In this document: positions 12,901-45,100 of the stretch, piece after piece
How positions within the stretch are numbered: the first letter of the stretch is position 1
How the letters are laid out: each line of letters begins with the position of its first letter
Assembly: GCF_028389875.1 (NCBI RefSeq)
Contig: NC_084675.1
Span: forward strand, 22,282,412-22,346,411
DNA: 64,000 nt
Direction: 5' to 3'
DNA from: Rhea pennata
Lineage: Eukaryota; Chordata; Aves; Rheiformes; Rheidae
The notes under the pieces: generated by a model
What the model saw: only the letters and a program-made list of their open reading frames with translations
Database searches by the model: none
What the model was told of the DNA's origin: nothing
Program-made: the position numbers and the translations under genes

Positions 12901-12910
12901 CTAAACAAAG

Positions 12911-16000: not shown

Positions 16001-16829
16001 TTCATGGCAACATCTCCCTCCCGCTTTCTCTCTCTCTCTCTCTTTTTTTTTTTTTTCCCCCTGGAACTCTTCTTAATTCCTGACTTAATTTCTTTTGACA
16101 TCCTCATTGCCAGCTTGACCTCTTTACTGGAATCATGTGGCGCTTAAAACTCATTATTCCACCGTTGCAACAGGAAGTTAATTAAAAACCCTTAAAAAAA
16201 AAAAAAAGATGAAAAAAATAAAAAGCCAGCGCGTTGATGGGCGGCAGCCGTGGCGCCGACCGCGGGCCGCGATGCCGCGGGGCAGGCGAAGCCGCCGCGG
16301 ATGCGCCTGGGCGTCGGTTGAGTTATTTATTTATTTTGCTCCGTTGCACGTGAATCCAGCCCGGTCATAAGAGCCGTCGGCGGGGCCGTGGTGCAGCCAG
16401 GCGGGGAAAGCGGGGAAACGAGGGCGGAAGGGCCGCGCGAGGCCCCGCCGGAGAGCGTCGCGCCGGCGGCGGGAAGCCGACGGAGCCGGGGAGCCAGCAG
16501 CTCCGGGGCGGCGGTGCCGTACGCTTGGGCCCGGCGGGTGCCGCCGCCGCGAGGGCTCGCGGCCCCCCACGGCTCCCACGTGCTCCAGAGCCTGGATGAT
16601 GCAGGATAGCGCTGTGTTCCCGCCCCCCCCCCCAAAAAACAAGCGCGGAAGCAGGGTGGGGGGGCATGGGATGCGGGGCCTTTTCCCGCGCCTCGGTTTC
16701 CCCAGCCCTATAAAGCTCTGCCAGCCCCCCACCCCCACCCCCTCCCCGTGACCCCCGCCAGCCCCCCGCTGCAACCCACCCGCTCTTGGACCAGCAGCCA
16801 TCCCCCAGCCCAAATGTCCCCCGGGGGGC

Positions 16830-17600: not shown

Positions 17601-17639
17601 GGGGGGGGGGAGGGCTCGTGGGCTCCCCCCACCCCCCGC

Positions 17640-17931
17640 GGAACCACCGCCCCCTCCCAATGCCCCTCCCAGCCCGGCTGCGCGCCGCCCCCCGGCCCCG
17701 CCCCCGCCGCGGCCCCGCCCCGCCCCGCTCCGCCCCGCCCCGCCCCGCCCCGCGCGCGCGCGCGCCCCGCGGCCACGCCATCCGGTGGGCGTGGCCGGCG
17801 GTGGGAGGGGAGCGGGGGGCGGCGGCCTATGGGCGGCCGCGCGCGGCGCGCGGCGGGGGCCGGCCCCGCCCCCGTGGAACGTTCCGCGGGGTTGATACAT
17901 TGCGGGGCCCCATTGAGAAAAAAGAGAAGGG

Positions 17932-17963
<32 letters not shown>

Positions 17964-18151
17964 CGGCGGCGGCGGAGCGCGGCGGCGGCGGCGGCTCCCG
18001 CTCCCGCGCCCGCAGCCGGCCCCGGCCCCGGCCTCGCCCCGGGCAGCGCCGGGCCGGCGGGCATGCGAGCAGCCGGGGGCCCGCACGCCGCCACCCACCT
18101 GCCGTCGCGGGCGCCGCCAGCCGGGGCGCCGTGCTCGCCCTTCGCCGAGCG
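17640..18151 (+). promoter_or_regulatory. ZFPM1: ZFPM1 CpG-island promoter and 5' leader
   Basis: A dense run of CCGCCCC/CCCCGCCCC boxes (Sp1/KLF type) lies at 17695-17770, next to a CG alternation at 17752-17764. A CCTATGGGCGG element follows, then the leader to the ATG at 18152. No TATA box is evident, as is usual for CpG-island promoters. The exact start site is unknown. Confidence 0.6.
17932..17962 (+). repeat. 31-base poly(A) tract near the ZFPM1 start
   Basis: An uninterrupted A31 run lies 189 bases before the ATG, flanked by (GCG)n. It is likely length-variable. Depending on the start site it is in the promoter or in the 5'UTR. Confidence 0.9.
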
Positions 18152-18191
18152 ATGTCCAGGAGGAAACAGAGCAACCCCCGGCAGATCAAGC
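18152..18191 (+). CDS. ZFPM1: ZFPM1 coding exon 1
   Basis: Encodes [13 protein letters not shown] plus the first base of Arg14. Donor C|GTGAGT. G at -3 gives a fair Kozak context. Confidence 0.95.
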
Positions 18192-21100
18192 GTGAGTGCG
18201 TCCCCCGCCCGCGGCCCCGGCGCCCCGGGGCAGCCCGCCGGCCCGGCCTGCTTTGTCCGCTCCGCCTCGCCTCCCCTCTCCGTCCGGCTCCGGGGCTGCG
18301 CCTCCTCCTTCCCCCCCTTCCTCCCTTTGCCTCGCTTCTCAGCGCTCACCGCCTTCCCCCCGCGGTTCGTAACAAGCCGCCCAAGCCCCCGGGGAGCCGA
18401 GCCGGGCTCCCTGCCCGCCGTGCCCCGGCGGCCCGGCGCCGCCCCCGGGTCCGGCTGCGCGGCCGCGGCTCGCCCGCTCCTCGCTGCCGCCCTCCCGCCC
18501 TTCTCCTTCCCCTCTCTCCTTCCAGCGAGATGTTTCCGATACCGGCGCTCCCGATGAGGGCGCGGATAAAGCTCTGAAATATTCCACTCTGCAAGCCCCG
18601 TCCTGATAAGATCGCTCTGTCGGGACGGCCTGAAATTGTGATCTTATCTCCGGCCGCCTCCCGTCCCTCGCGCGGGGCTGCGGCGCGCCGGGGGCCGCCG
18701 CCGGCCTTGGCATCGGCGTCGGCGTCGGCATCGCCTCGCCGCCGGCCTGCGCGGCCTCCGCCGGGCCCCCGCCGCCGGGCGCCGCCCGCCCCGCACCTGG
18801 GGGGGCGGCGGCCGGGGGCCCGGCCGGCCGGGGCGTCGCGGGGTGCCGGCGCCGGGGCTCCCCGGCCGATGCTGCCGCCTCCGGATTATCGCTCTCCCAG
18901 GGATCCGGGCTGATCAGCCGGGGAGGATCTGATTTCAGGGCTGGCGGAGATGAGGCGATTGCTCTTGCATATTCCGAGAAATTCTGTAAAGTGCTGGAAC
19001 TTTTTCAGCGGCGGGCTCGGCTTGCTTGCTAGCTTTCCCCCCTTTGCGCAGATTGAAGCTGGCGATAGCACTGAGATGGGAGGATAGGGAAGGCTGGCCA
19101 CCATGTGATAATATAGCTTTATCTCTCTCTTGAAATAATTGCAAGGCTGAGTTGCACCTACCTGTTTCCCTGCCTGGGGTGATTGTTCTGGTGATAAAGC
19201 TCAGCTAGACTTTTACCTGGTTAGAGTTAAAAATAGTCCCAGGTGCCTCCTTTTTTTTTTTTTCTTTTTTTCTTGATTTTTTTTGTTTAGTTTTATCCAA
19301 CTCCTGTAGCTTTCTATTTTTTTCCCCCTCCCTGCAGTTAAGAGGTGAAGTCTGACTAGGAGATTAATCCTTTCTCAGCGACATCTAAGCACACGGGCCG
19401 CATCCCTCCATAAGGCACCCGTTTTAATTAGCCCAAGTTAGCACCGAAGCGAGCGGCAGCGTCACTGCTGCGGACGCTCAGCCGCCGGCGTGGCGGTGCT
19501 GATGGGCGCAGCGATAGCACGGGCGATACGCGGGCCCTTCACAACAGGAACCCGGCGCCTGGGGCCGCGGGAGCCCCCCAAGGCCGCGGGAGCCGCCGTC
19601 CCCGCGGGACCTCCGCGCGGGAGAAGGTGCCGGGCAGCGCTCGCCAGCGCGCTGCCCGCACCGAAGGCGGCTCGTATCTCCTTCCTCCGCTGTTTTCTTC
19701 AGCGATGTGAAGAAATGATAAAGTGGGAGGCTGATCTCAAGCCGCCAGCGATGGCCAAAACTGATTAAAAGCTGAAAGCTTGGAACCTTTCCTGTATGTG
19801 TCAACATGAAAACAGTCATTAGAAACGTAGCGCGCTGCGAGCGCGTTTCTGCCGCCTGTTCCTGCTCTCTCCTGAGGAGAGAAAAGTATGCATGAATCAG
19901 GGCTCCGGTAACCAGACTCCTCTACCGTACAGACCGGACCTGTTTCCACAAAGTCTATCCTTTTTATCATCTCGGCTGAAGCATTAAAACCTCCTCCAGA
20001 TTCGTATCTCCTTATTTTATTTTCCTCAGTGACGCTATGTTCCCTCTCCTTCTTCATCTTTTTTTTTTCTTTTTTTTTTTTTTTTTTTGTCTTGATGTGA
20101 GATGCAGATAGCTCAACGGGGAGATTGTGGGGAGAGCGTGTGATTGCCAAGAGCGATAAGACAAAGCTCAGATACTGGACTATATTTAACCAGCTAGTTT
20201 AACCTTTTCTTTTTTCCCCTTTTCCACGCTTTCCGATTCAGCAAGCTGCTTAAAAAGCCAGAGCCGCTTTTCTGCTGCCCCCTGCACACACACACGCGCG
20301 CGTGCACCGCGCTGGGAGGTGCCCGGAGGGGCTGGAGGGCGGTGGGGGCCGGGGGCGCCGCGGGGTGTCCCTGCGGCCGTGCCGGAAGGCGGGCGCTCCG
20401 CCGAGCATCCCCGCTCTGCTTTAAACTTAGACGGCGTGCGGCATCGCCGGCGGCGGGGAGGGCTGCGCCTCGGCCCCCCGCGCCCGCCAGCCGCTCTCGG
20501 AGGCTGCGACAGCGCGGCAACCTCCGTGCAGCTGCTGCTGCTTTTTTTTTTTTTTTTTATTCTTTTTTTTTTCTGTCTTTTGTTCTGCTGGTAGATAGAT
20601 GCGAGGGGCTGATAGAGAGCAGGAGCTGATCTCCACCCCAGATAGCCTGTTATATTTATTAACTTCAAACATGGGAGTGCGGGCACACGTATGATGAGTG
20701 AGGCTCCTGGCAGCTGCGTGTGCATGCAGTTGCAGCGCCGGCCCTCTAGATTAGGGAAGCTGATAAGCAGGAGATTGATCTCATGTTGCTGATGTGCCTC
20801 TGTGCATGTTGGGGTTTTTTTTAATACATATATATTTTTCTTCCTAAATTAACTGGAAGTGAACGTTTTTTTTTGTAACAGTTGCAGGGCCTGCCTGTGG
20901 GTGTTGTTTTTTTTTTCTTTTTCCCTTTCTATTCTGCTTTCAGCTAGAGGAGATGTGAACCTCGATAAGCGCCGAGGCCCGATCTCCATACTGATACAGA
21001 TTGCCAAGTGCGATAAGAGCTACTTATCTCTCCCGACCAGACTGGAGCAGGATTCGCTACAATAACAAACACTGAAAAAAGGGGCAAAAGGGCTCCAACA

Positions 21101-24100
21101 ATTTGTTCCATTGCAAATGTGATTAATGCAGGCACTTTAATTATCTGGTGGGGAGGAGGGGGGACTGCCTATATATTTTTACTTCTTAGGGTGTTTTTCC
21201 CCTCCCTCGCATGCACGCTCTCTGTGACACGAGCTTCGTTTAGAAGACGAGCTCTCCTCAGCGCCTTTTATCAGCTACAGATGTTGCATTAGTTTGGAGG
21301 AGGCTGACTTTCTTTTTTGATCGCTATCTCTCATTCTGCTAAGTGTAGCAAATACATTGGGGGGGGGCGTGTGAAAGCGAAGTGATATTTTCGTGTGTGA
21401 ATATTCTTTAATTGCTATTAGATGGTGTCAGATAGCAAGCGCGATCTACGCTGTTATCTTCACGATTGGGGTTTTTTGTTTTGTTTTGTCGCTCAGCCGG
21501 GGTCCGTGCCGCTCCGGGGGGACGCGGCCGGCCCCGCTGCCTCGGCGTCACCCGGCGCCCCTTGCCGCGAGCCGTGCCGCGAAGCCGAAGCGAATTGCTT
21601 GTAAAGATTACAGTAGCCGGCCCGGAGTCTATTTTTAGCGCCGGCGCGGGAAGCCGGTGTCTTCGGAGCCTCCCGGCACGCCTCCTGCCCTCTCCTCTCC
21701 TCCCGTGTTTGCTCCCCGTCCGCGCCGGCCCTTCACTTTCGGGAGCGCACGGGTATCGGGCTCCTGCCGCGTCCCCTGCTCCGGCGAAGCGCCGCTGCTC
21801 CGTGCCTCAGTTTCCCCCCAACGCGTTATTCCGGGCGGCTCCGCAGGGCTGGGAGTCTCCGCTGCCTCGGCCGGGACCCGGGGATACGCGCCGGCGGTGC
21901 CTCCCCGCGTGGCTCCGGCTGCGGGAACGGGTATTTTCTGAGGTCTGCTGGCTGCCGCGGCATCGCCCGCAGCCCACCAAAAAGAGCCTTTCCCGGCCAC
22001 GATGGCCCGGGAGCTCGGCAGCGCCGCGGGAAAGCCGCCGCTCCGGGCGGGACGAGGGGCTCGGCGGGCCGGGATGCAGCCGGCCGCCGGTGGGGCTGGG
22101 CCGTGTCTCTCTTTCCCATCGGTTTTCCAGCCGGAAAACGGCAGCGGTGACCTGTCCGGCATCCGCGGGCGGAGTGGCCCGCAGAGGGCTCGCTGCGCTC
22201 CCGGGCCGGGAGTGGAAGGGCAGAGTTTGCCTCCGGCTCCCTCCGGAGCAGGACACGGGTTTGGGGCGACGGGAGCGCTGCCGCTGCCCGGCCGTGCCGT
22301 GCCGGGCCGGGAGCCCACGTCGGCCAGGATGGCTCTGGCGTTTCCGCCTGCCTGACGACGTGCCTGGCTGGAGAGGAAGCACGCTGCTCCTCCTCCTCCT
22401 CCTCCTCCTCCGGGGGCAAAAGGCAGGTGGGAAAGCGGCGGGGCACCCCGCTCCGCGGTGGGGCAGAGAGGCACTGGGGGTTGTTTGCTTTGTGTCCGAT
22501 GCCGCTCTTTCTCCTCCTCCTCCTCCTCTTTCTCCTCCCGCCGGTGCCCGGCGGTGTTGCCAAGGGCCGGGCGGCACCACGGCGGGGATGTTCCCGCGCC
22601 GGGCAGCCACCTCCAGCGGGCACGGAGACCTCTGGCCGCACGCTGGGGTGGCTGGGCAAGGTCGTATCCTCCTCCGAGAGCCGGGAGGTGCCGAGCCGGG
22701 CGCCGGTTCCCACAGGCGATGGGCGTCCCCGGGAGAGGGGCAGCGCCCGGCGCCGTGGGGACCCGAGCCACCCGCTTCTCGCGCGTGCCGGTGCTCCCGA
22801 GGCGCCCGGCCCTCGCAGCGCCGCCGGGATGCGCGCGGCGCGGGGCGAGCAAACAGCCCCCGGCGGAAGCGGCAGCGGCCGAGAGGCCCGGTGGCTTTCC
22901 CAAATTTCCCCTTTCCTTTCACTTCTTTGGCTTTTAATAAAGCCGAGCGGGACATTGCTGTTGGAGGAGCCCAGCTCTGCTCCGGGATTCCCGCCGTTTC
23001 GCCCGTGACCTCGTTTTTCCTATGCAGGATGGGGGGATAAAAGGATATTTCAGGCCGCCTCTTTGCGCGCAGAGTGTGAATGAAACCTGTGGGCCGTGTG
23101 TTTCCCCCCTCTTTTTTTCTGCAGCATGTCCCATGACCATTTTTTGTTGCCTGACTCAGGAGTTTTGACCGCATCAGCTTGGCAAAGCCGATGTCCTGCT
23201 TCGGATTTTATCAGGAAAGTTCAAGTGCTTCGGGGTAATAAAGTTCCCTCTTCCGATTGCCACGGCGCTAAAGGCTCCTCATTGTTCCTGTAGCAACGTG
23301 TTTTTTGGGAAGGGACGAAATGCCGAAAGGAATGCAACCGCTGACCTTGGGCTGCAGCGGGGTTAAGGAGTGTGTGCGCGTGAGTCACTGCAGATAAGAG
23401 CCTTCCACGGCTCGCTTTTTTTTATTTTTTTTATATTTTTTTTCCTCCAAAATAATTCTTTATCTCCTCTTTCTCACATCAACATATTTTCTTGACATCT
23501 CCCATTCAAGAGCGCATGGAGGAAAAGCGCGTCTCTAGTTTGGTAATCTGATGAAGCATGCATGCACATATATATATATATATATATATGCACATATGTG
23601 TATATATATATATGTGCATATGCATGCGTAGATGTATGTGCATATACAAATATATATACATACGTGTATATCCACCCATATATCTGCGTGTGGGGGGACG
23701 GGAGGCTGGTCCCGCGGCCGTCGCCTCCTCCCGCCCTGCCGCCTTCCCCTTCCCGCGCCGTTCCGGAGGGGAAGCTCAGGCGCTCGCTCGCTTCCCCGTC
23801 TCCCGGCCGAGGCCTCTCGCGCTCGTCGCGGCTCCGATGATAATGCGGAAAGTTGAACTGGCCCCATTACCGCGCCGCGATGGTGGCCGCGATAAGGCGC
23901 CGATAATGGCAGCGATAGCGGCGGCTCGGTAGCCAATGGCTCCGCCGCTCCTCCCATTAACATTCCCCACCACGGATCGGCTCGGAGCTGCCTATCTGCT
24001 CTCCATTTCCACTCCTCCGCTAGATAAGAATGGAAATACTGACTTCATAGCTCACTGATTAAAGTGTCTGGATTTCTTGATAATACACAGATAAATTATG

Positions 24101-27100
24101 TTTTTCAAAAAGAAGGTAGGGAAGGGAGTGCGAGGGGAGGGAAAAACCGCCAGCCCTGTTCCTTTTTTCTTTTCTCTTTTTTTTTTCCTCCCACCCCCCT
24201 CTCTTTTTCCCTCTTTCTCACCATGCCCCGTGCGTTTTTGGCCGGGAAATGCCCTTCCCGGTGCCGGCGGTCACGCGGAGCAGGGAACGGCTGCGTCCGG
24301 GGCCGTTCGCCGCCCCGCCGCGAGCGACGGGGACCTTTGCTTCCCGCTTCCCCGCGAGGCTCCCGCTCGGAGGCGGAGGTCGCCGGCTCGTCCGCGGCAT
24401 CTGCTCCGGGCTCGAGGACGCCCAGGCGCGGCCGTCGGGGCGGCCGGGCTCGCTCGGCGCGTGCCGACCCAAGCCGTCCCGCGCCACGCCGGCGCCGCCC
24501 GGAAATCGCGTTTCCAACGGGGGCTTTTCTTTTTTTTCCCCCCTAATTTTATATTAATTTAGATTGCTAAGCTGTTGCTGGCGGAGGAAACGGGGCTTCC
24601 ACACTTTTAGGTTCCTTGTGCTAGGAAAAGGTACTGACCGCAAAAATCTAAGTTTGTTTCATCTAAATATAAAACTAAAGAGCAAACAGTATAAAGTTCA
24701 TTTTTTAATGTGTTGCCCCATTCCAGTTGGGCTGTTCTCTTTATTTTTTTTAAAAGGAACTGTGATAAAAAGCAGCGATAAAGCCAGGACTGTTTTGTGT
24801 AGGAGTCGGTATCTGTGTTATCTATCTCCCTTTTTCACTCTCCGAGCAGCTCTGTTGTTTTTTACTCTTATCTCGCTCCACCAAAATGCCAAGAACAGGA
24901 AAAAAAGAAAAGAAAAAAAAAAAAAAGAAAAGCCCAGGCGCGCGCAATTGCGCAGACCCAAACTCGGCCTCCGCGGAGCCGGGGCAGAAAGCGCGGCCGC
25001 CGCTTCGGGAGCGGGGAAAGGAGAGGCCGGGGGGGGTCCCGGCGCCGTCCCCTGCCCTCGCCCCCTCCTCTCGCCCCTGCAACGAGCTGCGCCCGGCGGA
25101 GGGGCGCCCACGGCGCCAGCCCCGAGCCAAGCATCCCGCCGGGACGCGGGGAGCGTTTCGGCACCGGGACGGGACCGGCCGCGTACCCCGGACGGAGCTG
25201 CCCTACTGCAATTTCTTTCTTTTTTTTAGGGGGGAAAAAGCAGCAGGACGGGGGGGGGGGTTGCAGCCCCCGTGCCGCTCGCCCCCGGCCTGTGCACCCC
25301 ATCCCCTTACGCCGCGTTCGCTCGCGCCGCCGCCGGCATTGGGGTTCGCCCCCGCGGCGGAGCGAGCGGTTTGCAGCCGCTTCCCCCCCCGGCCCGGCAC
25401 CTCGCGGGGTCGCCTCTCCTCGCCCGGCGAAGCGCCCGCAGCTGGGGCCGCAGCCGGCTCCCTCCCCATCTCTCCTCTCCTAAAAACCTATCGGCGCCGT
25501 ATCGGCCCCATCGGAAACGCGGAGGCGCTTCGGCGTCGCCGCTGCCGCGCTCTCCCTGCCCGGCTCGCCCCGGCTCCCGCGCGCGCTATTAGTGGTAGCG
25601 ATCGCGTCGCCCCCAGCGCGCCGATCTCCTGTAATCTATCAGCGGTTTATCGGGACTATCTGAGAGCCGGGAACGGCCGGGCTCGGCGATGGCGCCGCGC
25701 TCGGGCGCTGATAAAGTTACAGAGTTCAGCCGGTGATGAATGTTAAGTAACTACGCCCCGCGCAGATAGGATACGGACTTGGCAGGGCGAGCAGCTCCGG
25801 CTGAAACCAATCTCCCCGATAGCAGCAGGGCTGCTTTTTCTCAGGCTCTGCCTCTCCTCGGCTTTTCTGCCCTCCCTCCCCTGCCCGGTTTCGGGGGCGC
25901 CGGCGGCACCCGGCTGCCCCAGCGTTTCGCCCCCGGCGTTGGGGGGCCGCCGAGCCGCGGGAAAAGCCGCGGCGGGTTTATCTCGGCGCGGCCCGGCCCC
26001 GGCGTTATCGACCCCTCGCACCGGGGCGATATTAAAAACGCCGATAGCGGGGGCAGCCCGGCGCCCGGGATGCCGCTGCGGAGCTGCGGCCCGGCTGATA
26101 GCAGCGGGGGCTTTGCTGCCGGGCGCATCCCGGAGCGCCGGCCGGCGTCGCCCGCTCCTCGCCGTTCGGCGCGCTTTGCAGCCCCTTTCCCGCCCGGTTG
26201 CCCTGCCCCGGCTGCGGGCGCCCGGCGCCCGTTTCGGAGCGGGTGAGCGTCACCGGGTGCCCGGGCTGAGCCCTTTTCGCCCGTCCCCGGCGGCTTGCCC
26301 CCTTCTTGCAGCGCGGGGACCGGCGCCGTGCCGCAGCCGCTTGGATGCTGCGGCGTTTCCCGCCCCCTCCGTCCTCTGCAGAGCCGCGGCAGCTGCGGGA
26401 TAAGGTGACCTTTGGGGACCCCGCGCCGTTTCGGGAACCCGAAGCCTCGTTCGCCCTCGGCCGCGCCGTCGGCGTCCGTGCTCCTCGGCTGCCCGGAGGC
26501 GCCGCGGGGTCGGGGGCATCCGAGGCCGCCCGGAGCATCGGCGCTGCTCGGAGTCAAACCCTAATAGCCAGCGCGGCGGAAGGAGAAGCTGGGCGAGGGG
26601 CGCAGGCGCCCCGCGGACCCGGTGGGAAGCCTCAGCTGGCTCGCTTGCCGTTTTTCTTTTTCTTTTTTTTTTTTTTTTTGAATTGAAGACGAACTCAGGG
26701 TCAGCATCGGGATAAGGAGGAGCTGGAAGGACGCAGCGGGCAGGAAGAGAGGAGGCGTCGGGGGCTCTGCCGGGGCCGGCGCGCGGCCCCCCGTGCCCGG
26801 GCGCCCTGGGAGCGCGCCGGACCGCGAGCTTCCCACTGGTTTTCGGGGCGGCCTGGGGGCGGTGGGGGCTCTCCCGGCCCGCCGCCGCCGCCGCCCCGCG
26901 CGGGCTCCTCCTCCCGCTCGCCAAGCCGGTGGGAAAGTCTGAATCTGTTGCTATTTTCTATCTGTTATCGAGGCCTGTTATCGCTTTGCTCTTGTCTGCG
27001 TGCCTGCTTTCGGGTAGCCCAGGGTCTCTCTCTTGGCAGCCTGGAATAAAACCCCTTTTATCCCCCCCCCTTTTATTTAATTTACCAAATACGTGCAAGG

Positions 27101-30100
27101 AGTGGAGGAGCCGTTCATTGGTCCCGGGCCGGGAGGACCTTGATTCGAGTGAAACGCTCCGCTCTCGTTACCTGGCTAACGAGGTCCCGGGTTTCGGGGA
27201 CGGCCCTGGACGCAGGGCGCCGGCGTGTCCCCCCCCCCCCCCCGCTCTGCAGGGGGCCGGGGCTCGGGGCGCGGAGCCGGGGGCCGGGCGCGCGCGGCCC
27301 CTTTGCAGCGGCGCGCGGGCTGCGGGCTCGGCCGGGCGCTGCCTCCGCGCGTGGTGGCGGCGACGACGACGACCCCCCGCGACTTAGTTTTCCTCGTGCC
27401 CGCGCAACCGAGAAGTAACCCCAAAGCCCTGTGCGGCAGGCGCGGAAAGCTGCTCCGGGCGCGTGCGGAGGGCGCGAGCCCGTCCCGGCGGCGGGGTGGC
27501 CGGTCGGGCCGGGAGCGCCGCCGGCTCGGGCTCCGGAGGAGCCCCCGTGCCGTCCGGCGGAGCCGCGGTGCCGGCCGGTCCCTGCTGCTGCCGCGAAGCG
27601 CCGCGCCCGGGAGCCGGCGTCCGCCCGCGTCTGCGGCCAGCCGGCGCCTGGCGAACCCGGGCACATCGTTGCACATTATTGTAAGTTTTTACAATCGCTA
27701 TAATTTAAAAAAAGAAATCCTTCCTTGTTATCAAAAAAAAAAAAAAAAAGGAGAGAGAGAAGGAAGGCGGGAGGGAGAAGAGTTAATCGTCTAAGCGGAG
27801 TATCTTGGAAGGGAGCATTTTTTGGCTCTTCCCCTCTCTGTAAAGCCAGCCTCAGTAATTCAGTTTTAAAGCATGAAAAAAGGGAGTTGATGAAATTCCA
27901 CTATCAGCACTGAACCAATATGCAAAATATCTCGCCGAGAATCAAATAGCTATTATGTTTTCATTTCCATTTCAGCGTATTTGCTTAATGAAGAATAGAC
28001 AGATCAGGCAAGCTGAGGGAGGCTGTGAGAGGTGATAACTGCGCGAGGCTTCCAGCAATCCCGGAGAAATGACGCTCCGCTCCCTGCTCCGGCTCGCGCT
28101 CCCTCTCTCTTTTTTCTCTTTCCTTTTTTCCCCCCCCCCTTTTTTTAAAGCTCTTTGGCGGCTCGCTCACCCCGCGCGGCGGCCGCCGGTGCTTCGCAGC
28201 CCGGGCACGTTCCCGGGGCCGAGGCCGCGGCGTCGGCGGGCTGGCACGCGGCGCGCGGGGCCGGCAGCGCTCTCGCCCGTCCCCGCGCCGAACCGGCCGC
28301 CCGCTCCCGGGAGGGCGGCGAGCGCCGGGGAGGAGGCGACAGTCGGGTTAACTTTATCGGGAGCCCGAGAGCCGTGAAGGCGTGAAGGGAAAAATTAGCC
28401 TAACAATGTTTCATTTGCAGCGAGAGAAACGATTTGTTAGCCGGCGATTGTTTCTGAATATTATCAGAGCCGTTTTAATTGTGCTGGAACTGAAATTAGC
28501 AGAATTAGAATAAATTGCCTTCCCTTCCTCGGCAGCCTCTTTATTCACGCTCATTGTTGTCTGCTTTGTATAGATTATGGGGCCTTTGTTCTGCCGGTGT
28601 AAATATACACGCCTGGAGTCACGGCGAGCGGCGGCCCTGCGCCGCGGCGCCGCGCCGGGGCCCCGCGCTGCAACGCTGCACCACGGCGCTGCAACGGTGC
28701 GCCGCGGCGCTGCGCCGGGGCCTTGCACTGCAACGGTGCACTGCAGTGGTGTGCCGGGGCCCCGCGCTGCAACGGTGCACTGCAACACTGTGCCGGGGCA
28801 CCGTGCTGCAATGCTGCGCTGCAGTGGTGCACCATAGACCCGCACTACAGTGCTGCACTGCAATACTGCGTCGGGGCCCCCCACTGCAACACTGCACTGC
28901 AACACTGCACCGGGGCCCCACGCTGCAACAGTGCACTGCAATGGTGCACCATGGCCCCGCACTGCAACGGTGCGCTGCAACGATGCGCCGGGGCCACACA
29001 CTGCAACGTTGCACTGCAATGGTGCACCGTGGCCCCGCACTGCAATGCTGCACCACAATGCTGCGCTGGGGCACTGCACTGTGGCCCTGCACTGCAATGG
29101 GGCACTGCAACGCTGCATCATGGCCCTGCACCGCAGCCCTGCTCCGCTCGCTCTGCCCAGCCGGTCCCCTTGCAGCAGCCTGGGATGGAGCGCGGGGGCG
29201 ACGGCTCTGGCCGGGGAAGCATTTGCCAACGCCTCTCCCAAGCGCCAGGAACTGAGCACCCCTGCGTGCCCTGAGCATCCCTGCGTGTCGCTCGGAGCCG
29301 GCTGCGTTTTTATGTATTTCTTTTCTATTAGTATTATTTATTTATTTAAAGTGCTCGCGGTCTGCTCCTCAGTGGGATGCTGTGTTGCTGGAGACGGCAG
29401 CGCCGGCACATTTTGGGGACCATGCCGCGGCGGCGGGGGCGGCCGTCCCCCTGCCCGTGCAGCCCCACGGCGCGACCCTGCGCCGTGCGCAGGCACCGCG
29501 GCTTTCGCCCCCCGAGACGTCTCCCTCAAGGACGCACAAATAGGGCCGCCGCGCAAGTTTGTAAAACCAGCAGTAAAATCTGCATTCGCACCCCAAAACC
29601 TTTCCCTCGGCGATGCTCAGGTCGAGCCCCCAGCAGCCGCGGGGCGCAAGGGGGGACGGGGTGAGCCGGGGGGCCGAGCCCATCCGCGGCGAGCGGGACG
29701 AACCTAACTTCAGCCGGAGCTTTGGGGCGGTTTTCCTCGGAGAAGGAAGGGCAGGGACCCTCCGGAGAGGAAAGGCCCCGTCACCCACCCCGCGCACCCT
29801 CGTGTTTCGGCAGGTTCCTTGGGAGAGATGGAGGACGGCGAGGACGCCGCGGCGGGGGACGCCAGCCCCTTGGCCGGGGAGGGGGCCGCCTCGGACCGCG
29901 AGGGCTCCGCCGAGCGCGACGCCCCGAGCCCCGACGGCGAGCTTCGCCGCGACCTGCCCGGTAAGCGAGCCCCCGGCGCGCTCCGTCTGCCCAGCGTGCA
30001 AATAGCCCGGGGGCAACGGTGGGGGGCTCGGGCCGGCCGGGCGCCGCTCTTGCCGCGGTCTGGGCGGTTCGGGGCAGCGATCTTGGCTTGCACGGGCGCA

Positions 30101-33100: not shown

Positions 33101-36100
33101 CTATAATCCTCAACTTGGGAGCGTTTGCAGATGTACCGTGCCATTTCACTTGCCTCCCGTTCGCTCGGCTGGCTGTGCCGCCCGGCTGGCAAGCCGGGGC
33201 CGGGGCCGGCCGTGCCGCCGGGCAGGGGGCGGCCGGAGGGCCGTGCCCGCCGCGCTGCTCTGCCCTCCCGGGGGCTCCGGTTGCTCCGTCCCGGTGCCGG
33301 CCCCTCTCAGCTTTCGGGAGAGAGCCCGCCGTGCTGAAGGTGGTGCACGTGCCCGAGGGCGCGTTCGGGGCCGGGCGTCGCGCCCGCTTGGAGAGGGGAG
33401 TTTGCATCCTACGGGATCCCCCCAGAGCCTCCCCTGTTCCCCCAGGGCCGGCTCGGTGCTCCGGCTCCCCGCCGGCTCGGAGGCGTTCGGGCGCTCCCGC
33501 TCCGGCCCCCCGGCCCGGCGGGCTTCGCGCCTGCAGGACGGGCGCGGAGGGGATCGACCGCGGCGCTGGCCTGGCGGGTGCAGATCCGTCGGAAACCAGG
33601 CCCGGCGGCTCCGTCTGCGGGGCGATTCCCTTTCCGCGAGGGACAAGGTGGGATGAAGCAAAGAGGTTTCTGCCTCGGTCCCTTGGCGCTGGCGGTCCGC
33701 GCCCGCGCCCCGGCGGGGGATGCTCCTCGCGGGAGCTGCCCCGCGCCGCCCTGCTCCGCATCCCTGCGCCGAGGGATGGAGCAGCCCGGCCAAGCGGCCC
33801 CGGCGGTCCCCGGACGCCCGGGGCACAGCTCCCGCCGGGGCGCGCTAACCCAATTTTGCTTTCTCGGCTGTTTATTCCGGGGCAAGCCAGGGCGCCGGCT
33901 CTCGGCTCCCAGGGCTTTGCTCTTCCCCGGCATGGCACGATGCCGCTGCCCGGGCGCCAGCCCCGAATCCGGCCTCGCTGCAAACGCTCCGTGCGGCGCG
34001 CGGGGCAGGGCTGGGGCGCGAGCATCCCCGCGGGCGCACGTGTCGAGCCGGCGGGGTCCGCGGGTCGGGGTCCCCCGGGGTAAAGCGGAGCGGCGCGGGC
34101 TCCGTGCCGCCTTGGCATCGGCCTCACCCCTCCGCCGTGGAAAGCTCCCTGCACGTGCCAAGGATGGGGAACTTTTCTCTGGTTTTCTGTTTTTCTTTTT
34201 TTTTTTTTGCACGCGTCGAAGTGAAAACTGCAAACTTTTTTCCTTTCCTCCCCGCCTCCCCCCTTCCCGTTCGCCTCCCTCTCTTGTTCGGTTGTGTTTA
34301 TCTGCACTGTGACTCCTGTCTGAATAATCTCTCGCCGCCTGGAGTTTGTGTGCAAACCTCAAGGTTTATTATCGGGCCGAGCAGGGCACGGCGAGGAGGG
34401 ACAGCCCGTCCTGACGGCCAGGCCCGCGCGAGATCTCCCCGATTGCGCCGGGCCCTGTGCGCGCGCCCGCCTGCCTCGCGCTCCTAGTTTCCCCTTTTCC
34501 CTCCGCTTTGGTATGTGTGGGCGGGAAAAATTATTCCAGCTATTTCTCTTTATCGCTCTGAGCTGTGCCGAGCCGCAGATAGATGTATTTGTTTTAGATT
34601 GCCGGGCTTCTGGGTGAAGGGAGCATGCGAGAAGTTGGGGTTTGGGGCAGTGGCCCCCCCAAATTGAGGGGTCCATGCGGGCCCTGGTCCCCCCTGTCCT
34701 GCGCCGCAGCTTGGGGCAAGCACAGTGCAGGCAAAAGCTCAGCGCCCGCACCGAGGGCAGCGGCCGGGCCGGGGATGCTGCCGGGCCGGAGGGACGTGGG
34801 GTGGGTTTGGGGACACTGCCAGGACGGAGGGATGCCGGGCAGGTTTGGGGACGCTGGTGGGATGGAGGGATGTGGGGCAGGTTTGGGGATGCTGCCGAGA
34901 TGGAGGGATGTGGGGCGGGTTTGGGGACGCTGCCGGGACGGAGGGATGTGGGGTGGGTTTGGGGACGTTGCCGGGACGGAGGGATGCCGAGGGGATTTGG
35001 GGACGCTGCTGGGACGGAGGGATGTGGGGTGGGTTTGGGGACACTGCCGGGACGGAGGGATGCCAAGGGGATTTGGGGATGCTGCTGGGATGGAGGGATG
35101 TGGGGCGGGTTTGGGGACACTGCCGGGATGGAGGGATGTGGGGTGGGTTTGGGGACGTTGCCGGGACGGAGGGATGCCGAGGGGATTTGGGGACACTGCC
35201 GGGACGGAGGGATGTGGGGTGGGTTTGGGGACGCTGCCGGGACGGAGGGATGCCAAGGGGATTTGGGGATGCTGCTGGGATGGAGGGATGTGGGGCGGGT
35301 TTGGGGACACTGCCGGGATGGAGGGATGTGGGGTGGGTTTGGGGACGTTGCCGGGACGGAGGGATGCTGAGGGGATTTGGGGACACTGCCGGGACGGAGG
35401 GATGTGGGGCGGGTTTGGGGATGCTGTCGGGATGGAGGGATGCCGAGAGGATTTGGGGACACTGCTGGGACGGAGGGATGTGGGGCGGGTTTGGGGACAC
35501 TGCTGGGATGGAGGGATGTGGGGCAGGTTTGAGGACGCTGCTGGGATAGAGGGATGTGGGGCGGGTTTGGGGATGCTGTCGGGATGGAGGGATGCCGAGG
35601 GGATTTGGGGACACTGCTGGGACGGAGGGATGTGGGGCGGGTTTGGGGACACTGCTGGGATGGAGGGATGTGGGGCAGGTTTGAGGACGCTGCTGGGATA
35701 GAGGGATGTGGGGCGGGTTTGGGGATGCTGTCGGGATGGAGGGATGCCGAGGGGATTTGGGGACACTGCTGGGACGGAGGGATGTGGGGCGGGTTTGGGG
35801 ACACTGCCGGGATGGAGGGATGTGGGGCAGGTTTGAGGACGCTGCTGGGATAGAGGGATGTGGGGCGGGTTTGGGGATGCTGCTGGGATGGAGGGATGCC
35901 GAGGGGATTTGGGGACGCTGTCGGGACGGAGGGATGCCGGGTGGGTTTGGTGATGCTGCCAGGACGGAGGGATGTGGGGCGGGTTTGGGGATGCTGCCAG
36001 GGTGGAGGGTCCACGTTGACTGACGGCTGCCAGTCAGGGCCACCCTCCCGCTCAGCTCCTGGCCCGTCCCTGGCTCCCGGGCGTTTCCAGGCTCGTGCCC

Positions 36101-39100
36101 ACTCTCCCGGCACGGCGCCGGGGCTGGGCGAGCACCGGCCCGCGGCTCCCCTGCCCGGCCGCAGGCTGGCCGTGCCGCGGCCCCGGGCGGCCCAGGGCTG
36201 CTGGCCGCCACCGCGGTTTCCGCCTCCCCCTTTCCGGGCCGGGATATCTCTCCGCCTCATCGTATCGGGGCCGTGACTCCGGCCTCTTAACTCCGCTTCC
36301 TCCTCCCGCCTCGGCTTCCTGCGCGGCCCCGCTCCCCGCCGGGCGCCGGAGCCCGCGGCCGGGCGCCAGCCCCGGCGCCTGCCGTCCCGGGCACCCCGGT
36401 GGCTCTCGCCGCCGCGAGGAGCCTGGACGTTTTCTGCCTTCCTGTCCTCCCTGAGCGCTTGCTAATCCGACTCCCGGTGATGAGTCCTTGCCCCCCTCGC
36501 GGCGGCTGGCCCCGGTGCCCCGATGGCAGCGCCCGGTGCGACCGAGAGCCCCGGGGCTGCAGGGGCCGGTCGCATCCTGGCCCGCAGGGCGCACAGGCAG
36601 CGCCGCGGGAGCCGCGATAGCGTCTCACGCCAGGGCAGCGCTTGCTGTCTGCGGTGATGAGGGTGGGCTCCGCTCTTCCTCTCCCACCCCCCTTCCCGCT
36701 CCCCTCCTCCTCCTCCTCCCTCGGCCCTTTCCTCCTCCTTGCAGCGGGCGTTTGTGTTGCTTGTGGCCGGCTGCTCGCCGGGCCGTGCCGGGACGCGGGA
36801 TGCCCCTGCGCCGCGGGAGAGCCGGGGAGAGGCGAGCGGGTTTGCAGGAGGCGGCAACGTCCCGGGAGCCGGCGGCTTACCGGGCCGCGTCCCGCGCGGG
36901 CACGGCACGGCACAGCACAGCACAGCACGGGGCGCTTGCGTCGCGGGCGGGGAGGACGGGCGCCTCTCCCGGCGGCCGCCGGCTCGGGCACCGCTTTGCC
37001 CCCCAGGCCGGGCTGCCCCGGCGAGGCCGGGAAGCGCCCGCATCACTGTCCGGGGTGGGTAACGTTCAGCTCCTCCATTAGCCAGGGTCAGGGTTCAGCG
37101 CGATAAAGATTTGCTGTTGTACTGAGTCAAAAAAATCAATAACTTGCAAGCGATGGCTGGGAGCGATAAGGGCAGCGAGCTCCCCGCGGCGCCCGGCCCG
37201 CCGTGCCCGCGGCGCCCGTGCAGACCCTCCGCCTGCCGGCGCCGCCGGGGCGGGATCCCGCTCGGAGCGTGGCCGGGCTCAGAGCCGCGGCGCTGCGGGA
37301 CGCTGCGGGACGGCGCCAGGGGTTTCTCCGGGAGCTGCTCGGTCCCACCGGCCCACCTGGAGCCGCGGTTGCACCCTCGCTTTGCCTTCCCGCTCTCCAG
37401 CAGCCTCCTCGCCGCCTCCGGAGCGGGGACGGAGCCGGCCCAGGCGCTGCCGCTCTTTCCGGGAGGATGCTCCAGCGCCCGGGCCCTGCTGCGTCGCATC
37501 CCGGGATCCTGCCCAGCCCTCGGCGCCCGCCGGCGCCCGCTCCGGGTCCGGGCCGGCTCCTCTGTCGGTCCCGAGGTGGCTCTGATTGCTCGAGCAGCCG
37601 GCGCGGCAAAGCCGGGATAATCTGCTTAGCCCCTTTGGAGAGATTTCCCTTTGTGAGCGGAGGTGAAGAGTGGAGATGCTGCGTGTTTGCAGCTTAAGAC
37701 TCTTCCCAATCGGCTCCCTCCATCTTATCGGAGCGGTGCCATCACATCATTTCGCTAGTTGAGTTGTCAGGATTTATTCCTTCCGCCTCGCGTTAGCAGC
37801 TGCTAAAAACAGAAGCTGCGGTGCAGGGGCCCCGCTGCCGGCATCGGCCCGGGCGCTCGCGGGGGGCGCGGGGCCGCCAGTGCTCGCGGGGCTGCCGCCG
37901 CTGGCACGGGGCTGACCCGCTCCCGGGAGCTGCCGCCTGATTCGGTTTTCGTTGCTTTTTTTCCGCCCTTTTTGCTTTGCTGCTTTCGCCCGGTTTTCGC
38001 ACGCCGCGGCGGGGAGGCTCGCGCCCACGTCCAGTCCTCCTGGCACCGGGCGTCCGCTGGCACCAGAGGAAAACCGCGGGGCGCCGGGTGCCGCCGGACG
38101 GACAGCCGGACCGTCCGCCGGCAGCGCGCTGCGGGGTCCCCGCGCGGCGGGCACGGCCCCGCGCCCCCTGCCCGCTCCTGCCGGGGGGCCCGAGGCCTCC
38201 CCCCGCGCCGGGGCCGGGGCCGGGGCGGCAAGCACGGTATTAATAGGACGAAGGCGCAGGGCGCTCGCGCTGCGAAGCGGTCTCATGACTCCCTGATAGC
38301 AGTATTTATCCAGATAGTATCCAGGGAGCTGCAAACACCCCGGAGCCTCGAATCGGAGATCCTTTCGGAAGGGCAGATCTGATTCCTCAGCCCCCATTTG
38401 ACTGAAGTCTCGGGAGTACGTTCGGGGGAGCGGAGGGGAGCCCTGGGAGCGAGGAGCCGTTCGGGAAGGGCTCGGCGGAGGGCCGGGAGGCGGCCCGGGC
38501 TCACCGTGGCGGCGGCGCGAGCCCGGGCGGCCCCTGCCCCTCCCGCTGCCTTGGCGCCCGCGTGTTTCGAGGCTGCGCTGCGCTCCCAGGGGAGAAGCTC
38601 GTGTGTGTGCACACATGCATGCACGCACATGCGTGTGGATGTGTGTGCACGTGCGTGCGTAGGTGTGCACCTGCGTATGGACCCCCGGAGCAGGCAGGAG
38701 CAAACCTGGGACGCCGGAGCCGGGCAGCGCGTCCTCCCCCACCTCCTTTACGCCATTTTTCCGTGGCCGGTTTGGGTCGTTTGTGGCTGGGTTTGTGCAG
38801 ACGCATGTTCTAGCCGCGGGCGAGGGCCTGGTGCTGGGCTGAGCCCGTGGCGGCCCGCGAGCGACGGGGCGCCGCGCGAGCCGCTGCCCGCCCTCCTGGC
38901 CAGCGGTGCCTTGCGGCGCGGTGCGTCCTTCCCGGCACCGAGCAGTAAGCAGGGATTTACGCGGGAGGTTTAATTCCTCCTCGCACACCTCTTCAGCGCG
39001 AGAGCCCCGGCCCCCCTGCTCGTCCCGGCCGCCCCAGCCCGCCCGGGCTTTCCAGGAGGGAGCTCAGATGGCAGCCGAGCTTTTCCTCTTGCATTTATCA

Positions 39101-42100
39101 GCCGATAAACGGCAGCGGTGCGATGACAGGATTAATCTTTGCTCTCCAGCATAGCTCAGGCTATTTCTTTGAAATCTCTCGATGAGGAGATAAGCACAAA
39201 GCGCTGCGCCTAGGTGAGCGAGCGCAGTTGTCCCACGGGCGAAAATCAGGGTGCGGGGAAGCAGCGCTGGCGCTGGGCTGCTCCGGGGAGAGCCGGGCGG
39301 CCCCGTGCCTCCGAGGGCCCCGTGCCTCCGAGGGCCCCGTGCCTGCGAGGGCCCCGTGCCTCCGAGGGCTCCCTGCCTCCGAGGGCCCCCTGCCTCCGAG
39401 GGCCCCGTGCCTCCGACGGGCGCGCGCGTGCCCCGAGGCGCCTGCGCCCCGGGCTCTCCGGCCCCGGCGGCGCCGCTCCGGGAAGCTCAGCCCGCCTCTT
39501 CGCAAGCCCCCAGACCCTTCCCTGCGGATGTTCCCAAGCTCCCCGAGATGCCCGGGCTGGGGTGGGTTTTTTCCGTCTTGCCACGCGGTGCGGCGCTGCC
39601 GAGGGCTCGCGGGGCGGGCGCGAGCAGCCGGTGCGCGCTGCCGCCCGGCGCAGGTGCGCCCGGCGCGGCCGAGCCTCCCGGAGCCGACCGCTGTGTTTTT
39701 TTCCCTCCTTCCTTTCTTTTCGCTGCTTTTCTTTGCAATCCAAAGCAAACAGCCCGATCCGTGCCCAATTTGGTTAATGATCTCGGAGATAGGAATTCCT
39801 GCGATAACTCCAGGGCCGGAGCCAATGGGGAGCCGCCTCGCCGGGAGCCGATGGGGAGATTAGATAGGCGGGGGTTGCGTTAACCCGCGGCGCGGTGGAA
39901 CGGCCCGGCCCGGCACGGCACGGCCGGCGGCGCAGCCGCTGCGAGGAGGGCGGCCGTGGAGGAGGGCGGCCGTGGAGGCGGCGCGGCGCGCACGGACTTC
40001 GCTCCCCTGCTCCCGTCCGCTGGGACGTGGCTGCGAGCGAGCTCCGGCACCGCACGCCTCGGTGCACGGCGCTGCATCGCTGTGCATTTATTTCGGAAAT
40101 CGCCGTTTTTCCGCCGCTCGCCGGGTCGGTGCATCGAGGCGAGCGGCTCGTCCCGAGGGCCGCTGCCACCCGCGCACGCCGCTCCCGGGCGAAGCCACCC
40201 CGGCAGCGCGCCGGGGCCGGAGCATCCCGCGGAGGCGCTGGGCGGCGGGGCCGGCGGCGGCGGCGGCACTATTTTTGTCCCGCTGTCTGGAACGGTTTTC
40301 TCTTTATCAGCGCCTGTGTGTTTTCTCTGCTGGGGATTGATACACAGAAGATGAAGTGCTCTGACATGGGAAGTGTCAGGCGAACGCTCTTATCTCGGAG
40401 ACATGGTCTCCTGACCCACACGCAGCTGATTACCAGCGAGACGTGGGGAAGGGGGGCAGAAAGGGGGGGCAAGGGGAGAGGAGGCGGCAGTTGGGCTCCG
40501 ATGGGGATGGGTTCCCGAAGAGCGGCCCGTTCCCTCCGGCAGCGCCGGCACCAGCGCTCCACGGGCGGCTCGAATGAGCCCAGCACCCCAGGCTGGGCCG
40601 CCCGGCGCCAGCGGCTCTCGGGCCGCTGCGGGGCCCGGCTCACTCGGGCAAGGCACCGAGGGGTCGGCGCTGGCGCTTTGGGAATCGGGTGCAAGACACT
40701 CGTGCAAGACACGGGCTCAGCCCCGCACCCCGACCGCCGACTGCATCGCATGCAGGGTCCCGGCCGCGTCCTGAGCCGGGGTGGCTGTCGTTAGCCGCGG
40801 GGTCCCCGGGAGCGGTGGCCGCGGCGCGGGTGCCTCTGCTGTCGCCCTTCCCCTGCTGCAAGGAAGAGCCACTCGCCCCGGCGGCCAGCGCCGCCGAGGT
40901 CCCGTCCTCCGATCCGGCTGCCAGCGGATGGTGCTTTCCTCCGAGGGGCCCCGTCTCCGCCGGGATGCGCGTGGAGCCGGCGCGTTCCCGGGGCGCGGGA
41001 GGCTTCGCCCCGCCGCGGACGGGGGGAGCCCGGGGCGGCAGCGCCGGCGGTGCCGCCGCGCCACGCTCGACGCCCAGCGCTTCCCGGCGCTCACCTTAAA
41101 TAACCCCGGCGCAGAGAGGATCCAGATGTCAGCCCGGCTAATAAACACATCAGATTTCAATCTCTGCAGCCATGGGATCGTTTTATCCTCCCTGCGTTCC
41201 TACTTCTGAAAGCAATTTGCCTTCAAACACGCGGAGCCTCCTGCCCGCCCACCGCATCCGGGTCCCGGCTGCGCCACGGCCGCCGCGCTCGGACGGGCCC
41301 GGGCAGATCGGCCCGCTGCTTGCTCCGTTACGGAGCCGTTTCCGACGGGGAGAGGCGGGCGTGCGCGCGCAGGGGCAGCAGCGACGGGTGCGCGTGGCCG
41401 TCCGGGGCCGGCGCGGTGCGGCGCGGCGGGCAGCGGCGAAGCTCGCCGGGCAGCTCGGGTGTCCGTGCGTCCGGCCGTCTCCTTGCGGGGGCCGCGGCAC
41501 GGGGCGCGCGGAGCAGCCGGCGCGCGTGCATCCGAGTATTGGTTACCTGCCATGTTATCTGCGCTCCGAAAGACAAAGGCGCAGTTAAAACATTTTAGAG
41601 CAGCCTTCGCAGCGTATTAACATGTTATCTCGCCCATTAAACCAGGGGCTTATCTCATCATCGGAGCCATTAAGCCCTGAAGCCGCTGCGACTTTGGGCG
41701 CTGGGACGGGAAGCGCTCCTTCCGCTGCGCCGCGGCGGCGTGCCGAGACCCCCCGGGAAGCGCCGGGGCCGCCGGCGCCCTCACGCTCTGCCCGTCTCTC
41801 CGCAGATGAGCTGGAGCTGGCCGTGCTGGAGGGGCAGAGCCGCGTGCGGGCCCGGCGGAGCCTCCCCCAGGGCTTCTCCTGGGGCCCCTTCCAGGGCAGC
41901 GTCCACAGCGAGCCGGCGTCTCCGGGGCAGAACGAGACGGTAAGGAGCACCGCGGCGCGGCACCGGCAGCGGTGGGTCCAGGAGCCGGGCGCCCACCCCG
42001 AGCGGGAAGCTCCCACCACGAACAAGAGCCGGGGGGGCAGCGAGCGGGTTGCGGAGGAGCTTTCCACGCTGAGCGCGCTGGGCCCCGGCTGCCCCGCACC

Positions 42101-45100
42101 GATCGACTGTGCTGCCGAAGCGGCTCCGGCACGCCGCATTCGGCGCCCGCCCGCCGGAGCCTCCTGCTCCCTCGACCTCGTTAACGGCAGTCACGGCGGG
42201 GCTGGATCACCGCCCCGCGCCCTGCCCCAGGCTCCCCGCGCCGGCAGCGGGCTGCCGGACACCGGGGACGGGTGAGCGGCGCCTCGGCGGCGTTGCCACC
42301 GCCCCGCGCATGGTGCAGCCGGGGATGCTTGGACAAACGCGCCGCCTTGCAAAGCAGATCGGGATCCGGGTTTCCCACCCCGAGTTGGCGCCACCGCGAC
42401 TCCGGCTGTGCGCCCGCCGGCGCTGTGCCTGGAAAGCACCAGGCTCTGCCGCCGGCTGCAGAGGAGCAGGAGAGGAGGCAGCGCGGTGCGGGCGGCGGCT
42501 GCGCCCGGTGCCAGCGGCCGCCGCAGCCTTTCGGGCCGTGGGGAATGACAGGAGCGACGTGGCAGGGCGAGAGGATGGGAGCGATTCCCGTGGGTTTTGC
42601 ATCGTTTTTGTTGGAGCAGGGACGTGCTGCGGCGCGGCAGGAGCGCCCTGGGCCCGGCGCACTGCTGCCTCGGGGCACGGCTGTCGGTGTGCTGCAGCCT
42701 GGGTCCGGCCCGGCACGGCACGGCCCGGCACGGCACAGCACAGCGGTGCAGCTCCGTCTGGCCAAGGCAGCAGGCAGCGCGGCCTCGGGCGGGTTTGGGA
42801 GAGCGCGGCGCTTGGGCGGGAGACGGGCGCTGCTGCGGCGGCGGAGCGCGCGTGCGGGCGTCCGTGTGCTTGCACGCGCATCTGTGCCCGGGCGTGCGCA
42901 CGCGCGTGTTGGCAGGATGGCCGCGAGCCTCGCGGCCCGCCCGGGGGGTGCCGGCACGCTTCCCGGCCGGTTCGGCGGCTCCTGGCAGGGCTCCGGGATC
43001 GGCCCCGTCCTGCCTGCGCGTCCCCGAGCTCGCAGAGTCCCCTCCCGGGGCCGCCCCAAGACGGGGGAGCCCCAGCCGGGGGTCTCCGAGGCTGGCGGAT
43101 CTCGCAGGAAGTCTTGGCTCCATCCCCACCTCCTCCCTTTTTCTTTCTCTCTCTCTTATTTTTTTTTTTTTTAGCTCAGGCCCGTTTATCTTTGCCGAAT
43201 TAAATCCTTGATTAACCCTTATCTGCCCAGTTTGGCTCCCTATCTCCCGGTTGGCGCCGTGTGTCCAGACACCCGGTACAGGATGATTGATTTCTTAAAG
43301 ATATGCGCGGCTTTTTTTCTGATACTTCATTTATTGTCTAAATATTTTTGCTCCCATTTCAGCAGCTCCCTTATCGAGCCGGGCTGATGATTCCCAGCCC
43401 TGCTTTCCTCCGGTGCTCGCCTCCCGCCCTATCTCTGCTTGGGGAACCGAGGAAGGAATCGCAGCTCCATCCCTGATACGGGCTGTCGCCCTTGGGTCCC
43501 TTCGCCTTTGCTGTTGGCGCTGGCGGGGGAGGCGGAGGAGGTCGCCCCCGAACGCCTGGCCGAGCCGCCGGGGCCGCTCGGCTCTCCGTCGCGGGCCGCA
43601 GCCTCGGGGCCGTGCGTCCCCTCGGATTCGGCTCGCGAGCCGAGCCCCCCCCCCCGTCGCGGGGGGCGGCCCGGGCTGCCCTTCCGCCGGCGGCATCGCT
43701 CCGCGCGCCGGCGTGCCCGCGGGCGGCGGGACGGGCTCGGGGGCCGCCGGGCACCCGCGGAGCTCGGGGCTCCGCTCCCCGCGCCGGGGGCCGGGCACCG
43801 CGGGCTCGCCGCCGCCCCGGATAACGGCGGCCCGGGCGGATGCGGCGCAGATAGGGTTTCCGATGGTTATCGGGGCCGGTTCAGAGCGGAGACACTGACC
43901 TCTTTGTTCCAGGGAAAACAAGGGAGGCTTCTCAGCGCGGGCTGGGGGCCGCCGGAGGGAAGCGCGGCCGGGCAGCGGAGCGGGGCGCGCTGCGGCACCG
44001 AGGGCGTCCGCCGGCCGGACGGGGCTCGCGGGCTCCGCAGGGAGCCGCCTCCGCCCGCCGGCACCGCCAGCTGCGCCGCGCACGCGGCGAAGCTGCGAAA
44101 CCTCTGCGGAGCGGCCAAACCCGCCTGCCCGCCCCGCGGCCGGGGGGCAGCACACAGCCAGGCCGGCGTGGCGTCCCCCGTGGCACCGCGGCGTGGCACC
44201 GCGGCGTGGCGTCCCGCGTGGCACCGCGGCGATGGTGCGGGCGGGTTTCTGCGCCGTCGGCAGCGGCATGCGCGCGTCCGCGGGCGCTTTATCACGCTGC
44301 GAGCGCTCGGCTCCTTGCGGTGATAAGGCCTAAACCGGCTGAGACTGTCAGTCTGAGTTTGAGGGTTTAGAAATATTGGGACGAATAATTAGATTTCATA
44401 TCGTTACCGCGGCAGCCATCGGAGGATCAGGCAGATTAATTTCCCCCCCCCTTCCTTTGCTCATCAGTATTCATTAGCGATGCAGGGAGGCAGCGCCGGG
44501 CCCAGGCTGGCACGGGCTGAGCGGCGAGGGCTGCGAGCCCCGCGCGCCTCCCGCCGCGGTGCTGACTCGGCGCCGCCGCGCCGCCCCCGGCGCTCACCCG
44601 TCCCTGCCTTCTGGCTGTCGGCAGAGCCCGCCCGTGACGCTGGTGCTGGGAGACGAGAGCTGCTGGCTGTCCAGGCTGCCCCTCGTGCCCGCAGAGCCCG
44701 ACGCCAACGCCGTCGTCTACAGCAAGGGTTGGTATCTGCAGCGCGCCGCACCGCCGACGAAAGGGTCCCGCGAGCCGGGCGCCGGGGCCGGCTGCAGACG
44801 ATGTACCGGTGCCCGGGGAAGCTGGAGCCCCGGCGCCCCGGTCAGCGACGCAGCGGCGGCACCCTCCTCTCCGGGCTCTGCGCCCGGGGAGCCGCGCCTG
44901 CGCCCGGCAGCAGCCCCCGCTGCCCACCCGGGCGAGTCCTGGTGGCCCCCTGCGCCCCGCCAGCGCAGCGTCCCCCCCCCCCCCCGTCTCGCTCCCCCTT
45001 TGCTGGGAGTCCCCTGGGCTTTCCCGGCGTCCCAGCCTTCCTGGGCTCTCCCCTCCCCGGCTCCCCTTGCAGACGGGGCCTGGGGATATGAGGCAGGAGC

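Follow-up and report, generated by a model that had tools for sequence, protein, structure and literature searches.

Homotypic clusters gather many sites for one transcription factor in enhancer-sized clusters. The closest described relative of the locus considered here is mouse Zfpm1, whose 'multiple internal enhancers' are co-bound by GATA1 and TAL1 in erythroblasts, many of them being active in reporters (PMC6972633); a second is a CGATA element, sensitive to methylation, that lies in the second intron of mouse c-Kit (PMC7244756). Here we analyzed a 64-kb window from Rhea pennata (contig NC_084675.1, positions 22,282,412 to 22,346,411), in which ZFPM1, the gene encoding FOG1, lies on the + strand. 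Within this window an excess of HGATAR sites is restricted to the four large ZFPM1 introns, which probably form an array of scattered enhancers that GATA factors read; the likeliest readers are GATA-1/GATA-2, together with TAL1-type partners, in red-cell and thrombocyte precursors.

Motifs were counted on both strands and compared with dinucleotide shuffles, carried out either across a whole region or inside 200-bp blocks, which retain AT-rich pockets; all controls come from the same 64-kb window of this one genome. Between positions 18540 and 44340 there are 75 strict WGATAR sites, where 12.5 ± 3.4 are expected from whole-region shuffles and 16.9 ± 4.1 from block shuffles, and none of 200 shuffles reached the observed number (maximum 32). 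GATA cores number 159 in the same interval, against 65.2 (whole-region) or 67.1 (blocks) expected, and again 0 of 200 shuffles reached this count. An earlier note on this DNA had spoken of several dozen cores and more than 20 strict sites in four large introns, above what chance would supply; the true figures are higher, and shuffling each intron separately reveals an excess in all four. Intron 1 (18192..29813; 11.6 kb) contains 41 WGATAR sites (11.0 expected; 0 of 1000 200-bp-block shuffles reach this), intron 2 (29961..31413; 1.5 kb) contains 6 (1.4 expected; 1 of 1000), intron 3 (31504..41803; 10.3 kb) contains 21 (3.9 expected; 0 of 1000) and intron 4 (41940..44623; 2.7 kb) contains 7 (1.4 expected; 0 of 1000). 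This excess is insensitive to block size (100, 200 or 500 bp). Neither of the comparison regions that the note had put forward, ZNF469 (1-10756; a label taken from that note) and 57501-64000, shows an excess of WGATAR (7 vs 12.5 and 17 vs 15.8, respectively, by whole-region shuffles). The same is true of the upstream DNA, whether taken as 10757-18539 (8 vs 4.6 by whole-region shuffles, 6.6 by blocks) or as the 7.4 kb of 10757-18151 (8 vs 6.7), and of 44341-57500 (2 vs 2.8, whole-region), including the last exons at 45393-48562 (0 vs 0.3) and the 3' flank at 48563-57500 (2 vs 2.4).

The letters that are enriched follow the specificity of GATA factors. In the intron set, which for the counts of letter dependence, GC class and clustering includes the small exon 3 (excluded from the per-intron counts), WGATAR is raised 4.4-fold (75 vs 17.1 expected) and CGATAR 3.0-fold (33 vs 11.1), neither being reached by any of 200 shuffles; GGATAR reaches 1.5-fold (19 vs 12.9) and NGATAY 1.2-fold (34 vs 29.4), and CGATAY is not raised (7 vs 7.9). 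Among individual hexamers, TGATAA (25 vs 3.8), AGATAA (23 vs 4.8), CGATAA (23 vs 4.9) and AGATAG (18 vs 4.7) are accompanied by TGATAG (9 vs 3.8), CGATAG (10 vs 6.3), GGATAA (12 vs 5.9) and AGATAC (7 vs 2.5), and AGATTA is likewise raised (14 vs 4.5). When 1988 canonical hexamers are ranked by score, poly-A comes first, TGATAA second and GATAAA third, with GGAGGA, CTCCTC and several GC-rich words just below. Flanking the 108 HGATAR sites, A is rare at -1 (6 sites), as is T at +6 (12 sites). Dependence on the outer H and R makes the excess GATA-factor-like: the sites are present for GATA-like reasons, and the statistics single out no particular GATA factor, tissue or activity.

It is scarcely credible that base composition, repeats or a local bias of mutation produced this excess as a by-product with no regulatory role, as it survives block shuffles at 100, 200 and 500 bp and varies with the outer letters H and R. 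Eight of nine control patterns, made by permuting the letters, are flat in 18540-44340 (0.71-1.14 of whole-region and 0.55-1.07 of block expectation). The ninth, the reversed pattern RATAGW, is raised there 1.6-2.1-fold (22 vs 10.6 by whole-region shuffles or 14.1 by blocks) and lends the by-product explanation some support, as do the preference of the sites for AT-rich DNA and the closeness of their clustering to what composition predicts; a further permutation, WATAGR, is raised outside the introns (7 vs 1.9 in 44341-57500). The preference itself is marked. Of the 75 WGATAR sites, 45 fall in the 22% of the stretch whose 151-bp GC is under 0.55; mean GC is 0.52 next to the sites and climbs to 0.68 by 300 bp away. 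WGATAR is nonetheless enriched in all five GC classes (2.6-, 4.9-, 5.3-, 4.6- and 6.9-fold), which together with the block shuffles rules out the composition of AT pockets as the cause of the excess.

The sites are indeed concentrated in AT-rich pockets, a feature to which the earlier note had attached importance, but this contributes little once composition is taken into account. The 108 HGATAR sites form 26 clusters, against 21.6 ± 2.4 when they are placed at random according to local composition; 103 of the 108 fall in clusters (96.3 ± 3.1 by composition), and 8 clusters hold at least five sites (7.5 ± 1.5). Because the number of clusters exceeds that of random placement by local composition only slightly, the pockets appear to be mostly a matter of base composition, marking where such sites can exist, and not an extra layer of organization. 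Five of the eight larger clusters lie in intron 1, at 18886..19197 (5 sites), 20963..21459 (8), 23838..24094 (8), 24763..24873 (5) and 25488..26101, the last being the largest with 11 sites and a GC of 0.68. The others are at 30670..31121 in intron 2 (7 sites), 32520..32744 in intron 3 (6) and 43186..43434 in intron 4 (5).

Tandem repeats or copied elements were also rejected as a source of sites: no tandem arrays or repeat families were seen at them, which counts further against a non-regulatory origin, and different clusters share only 15 short matches of 15-41 bp. Palindromic GATA arrangements were dismissed as a design feature, since loose matches number only 4 in the introns, with 3 more elsewhere in the window. 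Minisatellites do occur in the gene, with a 38-bp unit over 1.4 kb of intron 3 (34648-36060) and a 39-bp unit in intron 1 (28608-29160), and two more lie downstream of ZFPM1 (49291-50037 and 53939-54522).

Possible evidence for a partner comes from spacing. The dinucleotide TG starts upstream at -11 to -8 from HGATAR 45 times, where 23.4 are expected from other offsets (P 5e-5), and 42 times (22.4 expected, P 1.4e-4) when the TG of another TGATA is left out; no other run of four offsets, among about 100, scores as well. The same offsets from 53 non-consensus GATA cores show no excess (11 vs 12.7). Around CGATAR alone, TG at -10/-9 occurs 10 times against 3.4 expected (P 0.003). A spacing of 8-10 bp from GATA to E-box has been published (PMC5823854), and the signal would fit a TAL1-type partner at a half E-box.

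Several observations weigh against an erythroid enhancer array. The TG offset range was picked after viewing the profile, and the non-consensus control cores have a run of 21 TG against about 12.7 at another offset, so that the noise in spacing is not small. With WGATAR alone, TG at -10/-9 is only suggestive (13 vs 8.3, P 0.08), and CTG has no spacing signal at HGATAR (10 vs 9.8). No enrichment was found in the introns for CAGCTG (9 vs 9.2), CAGATG (6 vs 7.0), TGTGGT (1 vs 4.0), GGAAGT (4 vs 7.1) or CCACACCC (0 vs 1.1). Full E-box, CTG, ETS, RUNX and CACCC partners were dropped for want of enriched words, and there is therefore no general blood-enhancer signature. Clustering of HGATAR beyond composition is weak, as is the same-strand bias of neighbors: of 62 pairs no more than 60 bp apart, 42 share a strand, against a fraction of 0.54 in shuffles (P 0.03). 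The restriction of controls to this window leaves room both here and for a non-regulatory excess. Among other words, TGACTCA is slightly up in the introns (3 vs 0.8). Separately, with three large arrays set aside, CTGCAAAC/GTTTGCAG is found 9 times in the introns (range 25370-38335), where 0.5 would be expected; each of the 12 CTGCAAA words in the introns has an HGATAR site no more than 324 bp away; and CACGTG is found 15 times against 4.5 expected in 44624-57500, perhaps inside minisatellites.

All GATA factors read nearly identical letters. The introns could thus hold an enhancer set that is not mainly erythroid, used by GATA factors outside blood (GATA4/5/6 in heart, gut and gonad; GATA2/3 in nerve and T cells) or in several tissues, and the raised AGATTA count and the lack of raised RUNX-, ETS- and CACCC-type words would agree with this, as would GATA3 at the Zfpm1 transcription start site in mouse CD4 T cells (PMC6972633). 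We regard such use as unlikely, given that the TG spacing fits a TAL1 partner and that the internal enhancers of the mouse gene are described as erythroid, most of them showing in T cells either a quiescent state or no more than transcription (PMC6972633).

Under the preferred reading, GATA factors would bind the dispersed HGATAR sites of the four introns, TAL1-type partners would join GATA-1/GATA-2 there, and the resulting intronic enhancers would act in red-cell and thrombocyte precursors. The logic would be feed-forward, with the FOG1 gene turned on by the same factors that FOG1 serves. Binding, enhancer activity, cell type and feed-forward logic are points that we infer from the DNA itself. 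The proposal of a multi-enhancer locus under GATA control accordingly survives as the best reading of GATA specificity, TG spacing and the mouse Zfpm1 enhancers, although the concentration in pockets contributes little to it. The sites might instead serve as a brake, on which GATA-1, FOG1 and NuRD hold FOG1 output down by negative feedback. Exon 1 encodes the FOG1 N-terminal motif, which binds NuRD. GATA-1 also represses c-Kit via an intronic CGATA (PMC7244756). A brake is nevertheless very improbable, as GATA-1 activates Zfpm1 in mouse (PMC7244756), where reporter expression goes up with many of the enhancers predicted for the gene (PMC6972633).

CGATAR makes up 33 of the 108 HGATAR sites (31%). 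Its excess is carried by introns 1 (18 vs 5.7) and 3 (11 vs 3.5), introns 2 and 4 having 2 each (0.9 and 0.8 expected, respectively; not significant). A WGATAR lies within 100 bp of 23 of the 33, and of 3 of 7 CGATAY, 9 of 28 GGATAN, 21 of 47 CGATG, 6 of 15 CGAAT, 3 of 7 CGAAAA and 0 of 5 CGTAA; for WGATAY, which occupies AT-richer DNA, the figure is 15 of 18. In mouse, GATA-1 binds CGATA only if it is unmethylated, and GATA-2 binds it weakly; the genes in which GATA-1 occupies a CGATA whose methylation changes during blood development include Zfpm1 (PMC7244756). By analogy with that work, this third of the sites should be readable only when unmethylated. Among mouse GATA-1 peak motifs, 38,799 are AGATA, 24,126 TGATA and 2,708 CGATA (about 4% CGATA), and the authors of that report suggest that CGATA sites are perhaps under-appreciated, CpG being rare in mammals (PMC7244756).

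CpG is only weakly depleted across the gene. The ratio of observed to expected CpG is 0.74-1.11 per kb over 18-49 kb and 0.49 in 49001-50000, the fall being located between the ZFPM1 stop codon and 50 kb. It is 0.34 in ZNF469, 0.28 at 57.5-64 kb and 0.65 in 48563-57500, where the two kb from 55 to 57 kb reach 0.95 and 0.85. For TpG+CpA the introns give 0.93-0.99 and the DNA at 14-18 kb gives 0.89, whereas values of 1.12-1.39 are seen in the four remaining stretches. This weak depletion suggests that germline methylation is low across the ZFPM1 body, which would let CGATAR persist. Intronic DNA with a 201-bp GC under 0.5 has a CpG ratio of 0.63, so these AT-rich parts may be partly methylated. 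The domain of weak CpG depletion extends over the ZFPM1 body for some 30 kb, ending sharply on the 3' side and fading gradually on the 5' side, upstream of the gene; as the ratio is 0.61-1.03 at 10-18 kb, the 5' edge does not coincide with the gene start. At 57501-64000 there is an abrupt shift to AT-rich (GC 0.40), CpG-poor DNA. A more speculative proposal, to which we give a small chance, is that the FOG1 introns are in this lineage a germline-unmethylated domain in which CGATA is a regular part of the GATA code, such that the CGATAR third would chiefly answer GATA-1, and FOG1 would rise as GATA-1 takes over from GATA-2 and could be locked by methylation.

The gene model on which these counts depend has its coding start at 18152, its stop at 48562 and a PIDLS motif at 47747, exon placement having been guided by a human N-terminal sequence. 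The coding part of exon 1 (18152..18191, +) is followed by a GTGAGT donor at 18192; exon 2 (29814..29960, +) precedes a probable exon 3 (31414..31503, +; ending ...NSWSGP), which was called on its splice signals, its phase and its acidic residues, and the exon after intron 3 lies at 41804..41939 (+). Further exons start at about 44625 and 45393 (+), and the last, with small introns between them, encode the zinc fingers and PIDLS (45393..48562, +). The best PDB match of the zinc-finger exons is 1srk (ZFPM1; E 3.2e-13), and they also match Pfam CCHC_ZFPM2 (E 6e-35). The four large introns assumed by the earlier note are upheld by this placement, with exon 3 as a probable call. An Rfam scan of the window gave 0 matches at the gathering threshold.

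No enhancer map of avian ZFPM1 was found among the titles and abstracts listed from the open papers covered, and the main text of a chicken erythroid ATAC paper (PMC11066237), which used public ATAC maps of HD3 cells, mentions neither ZFPM1 nor FOG1. ZFPM1 is named in another paper as one of the erythropoiesis genes that are differentially expressed, and not disrupted, in HD3 (PMC9906895). That mammalian Zfpm1 has intronic GATA-bound enhancers, as the earlier note stated, is in line with the enhancer-like states reported in mouse (PMC6972633). The principle is thus already known, and it is the make-up of the array that looks unusual; one in which CGATA forms a third does not appear in the accounts of the mouse gene and its CGATA sites consulted here (PMC6972633, PMC7244756). 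The control of their own cofactor's gene by GATA factors is a circuit which, judged by sequence, is probably densely written in ZFPM1, and 33 candidate CGATAR sites in one gene make it well suited to tests of CGATA sites that are sensitive to methylation. More broadly, GATA sites are conspicuous in CpG-rich, GC-rich DNA, and similar loci might be readable without chromatin data. The Rhea introns share with the mouse Zfpm1 enhancers the same gene, a position in the gene body, GATA as the main motif and a sign of a TAL1 partner, but the mouse elements are known from more than their letters (PMC6972633). Like homotypic clusters, they group numerous sites of a single factor on the scale of an enhancer, but these groups are distributed across four introns, over about 26 kb, and are little denser than local composition predicts. 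With the c-Kit element they share an intronic CGATA core; where one site was studied there (PMC7244756), ZFPM1 offers 33, or 31% of its HGATAR sites.

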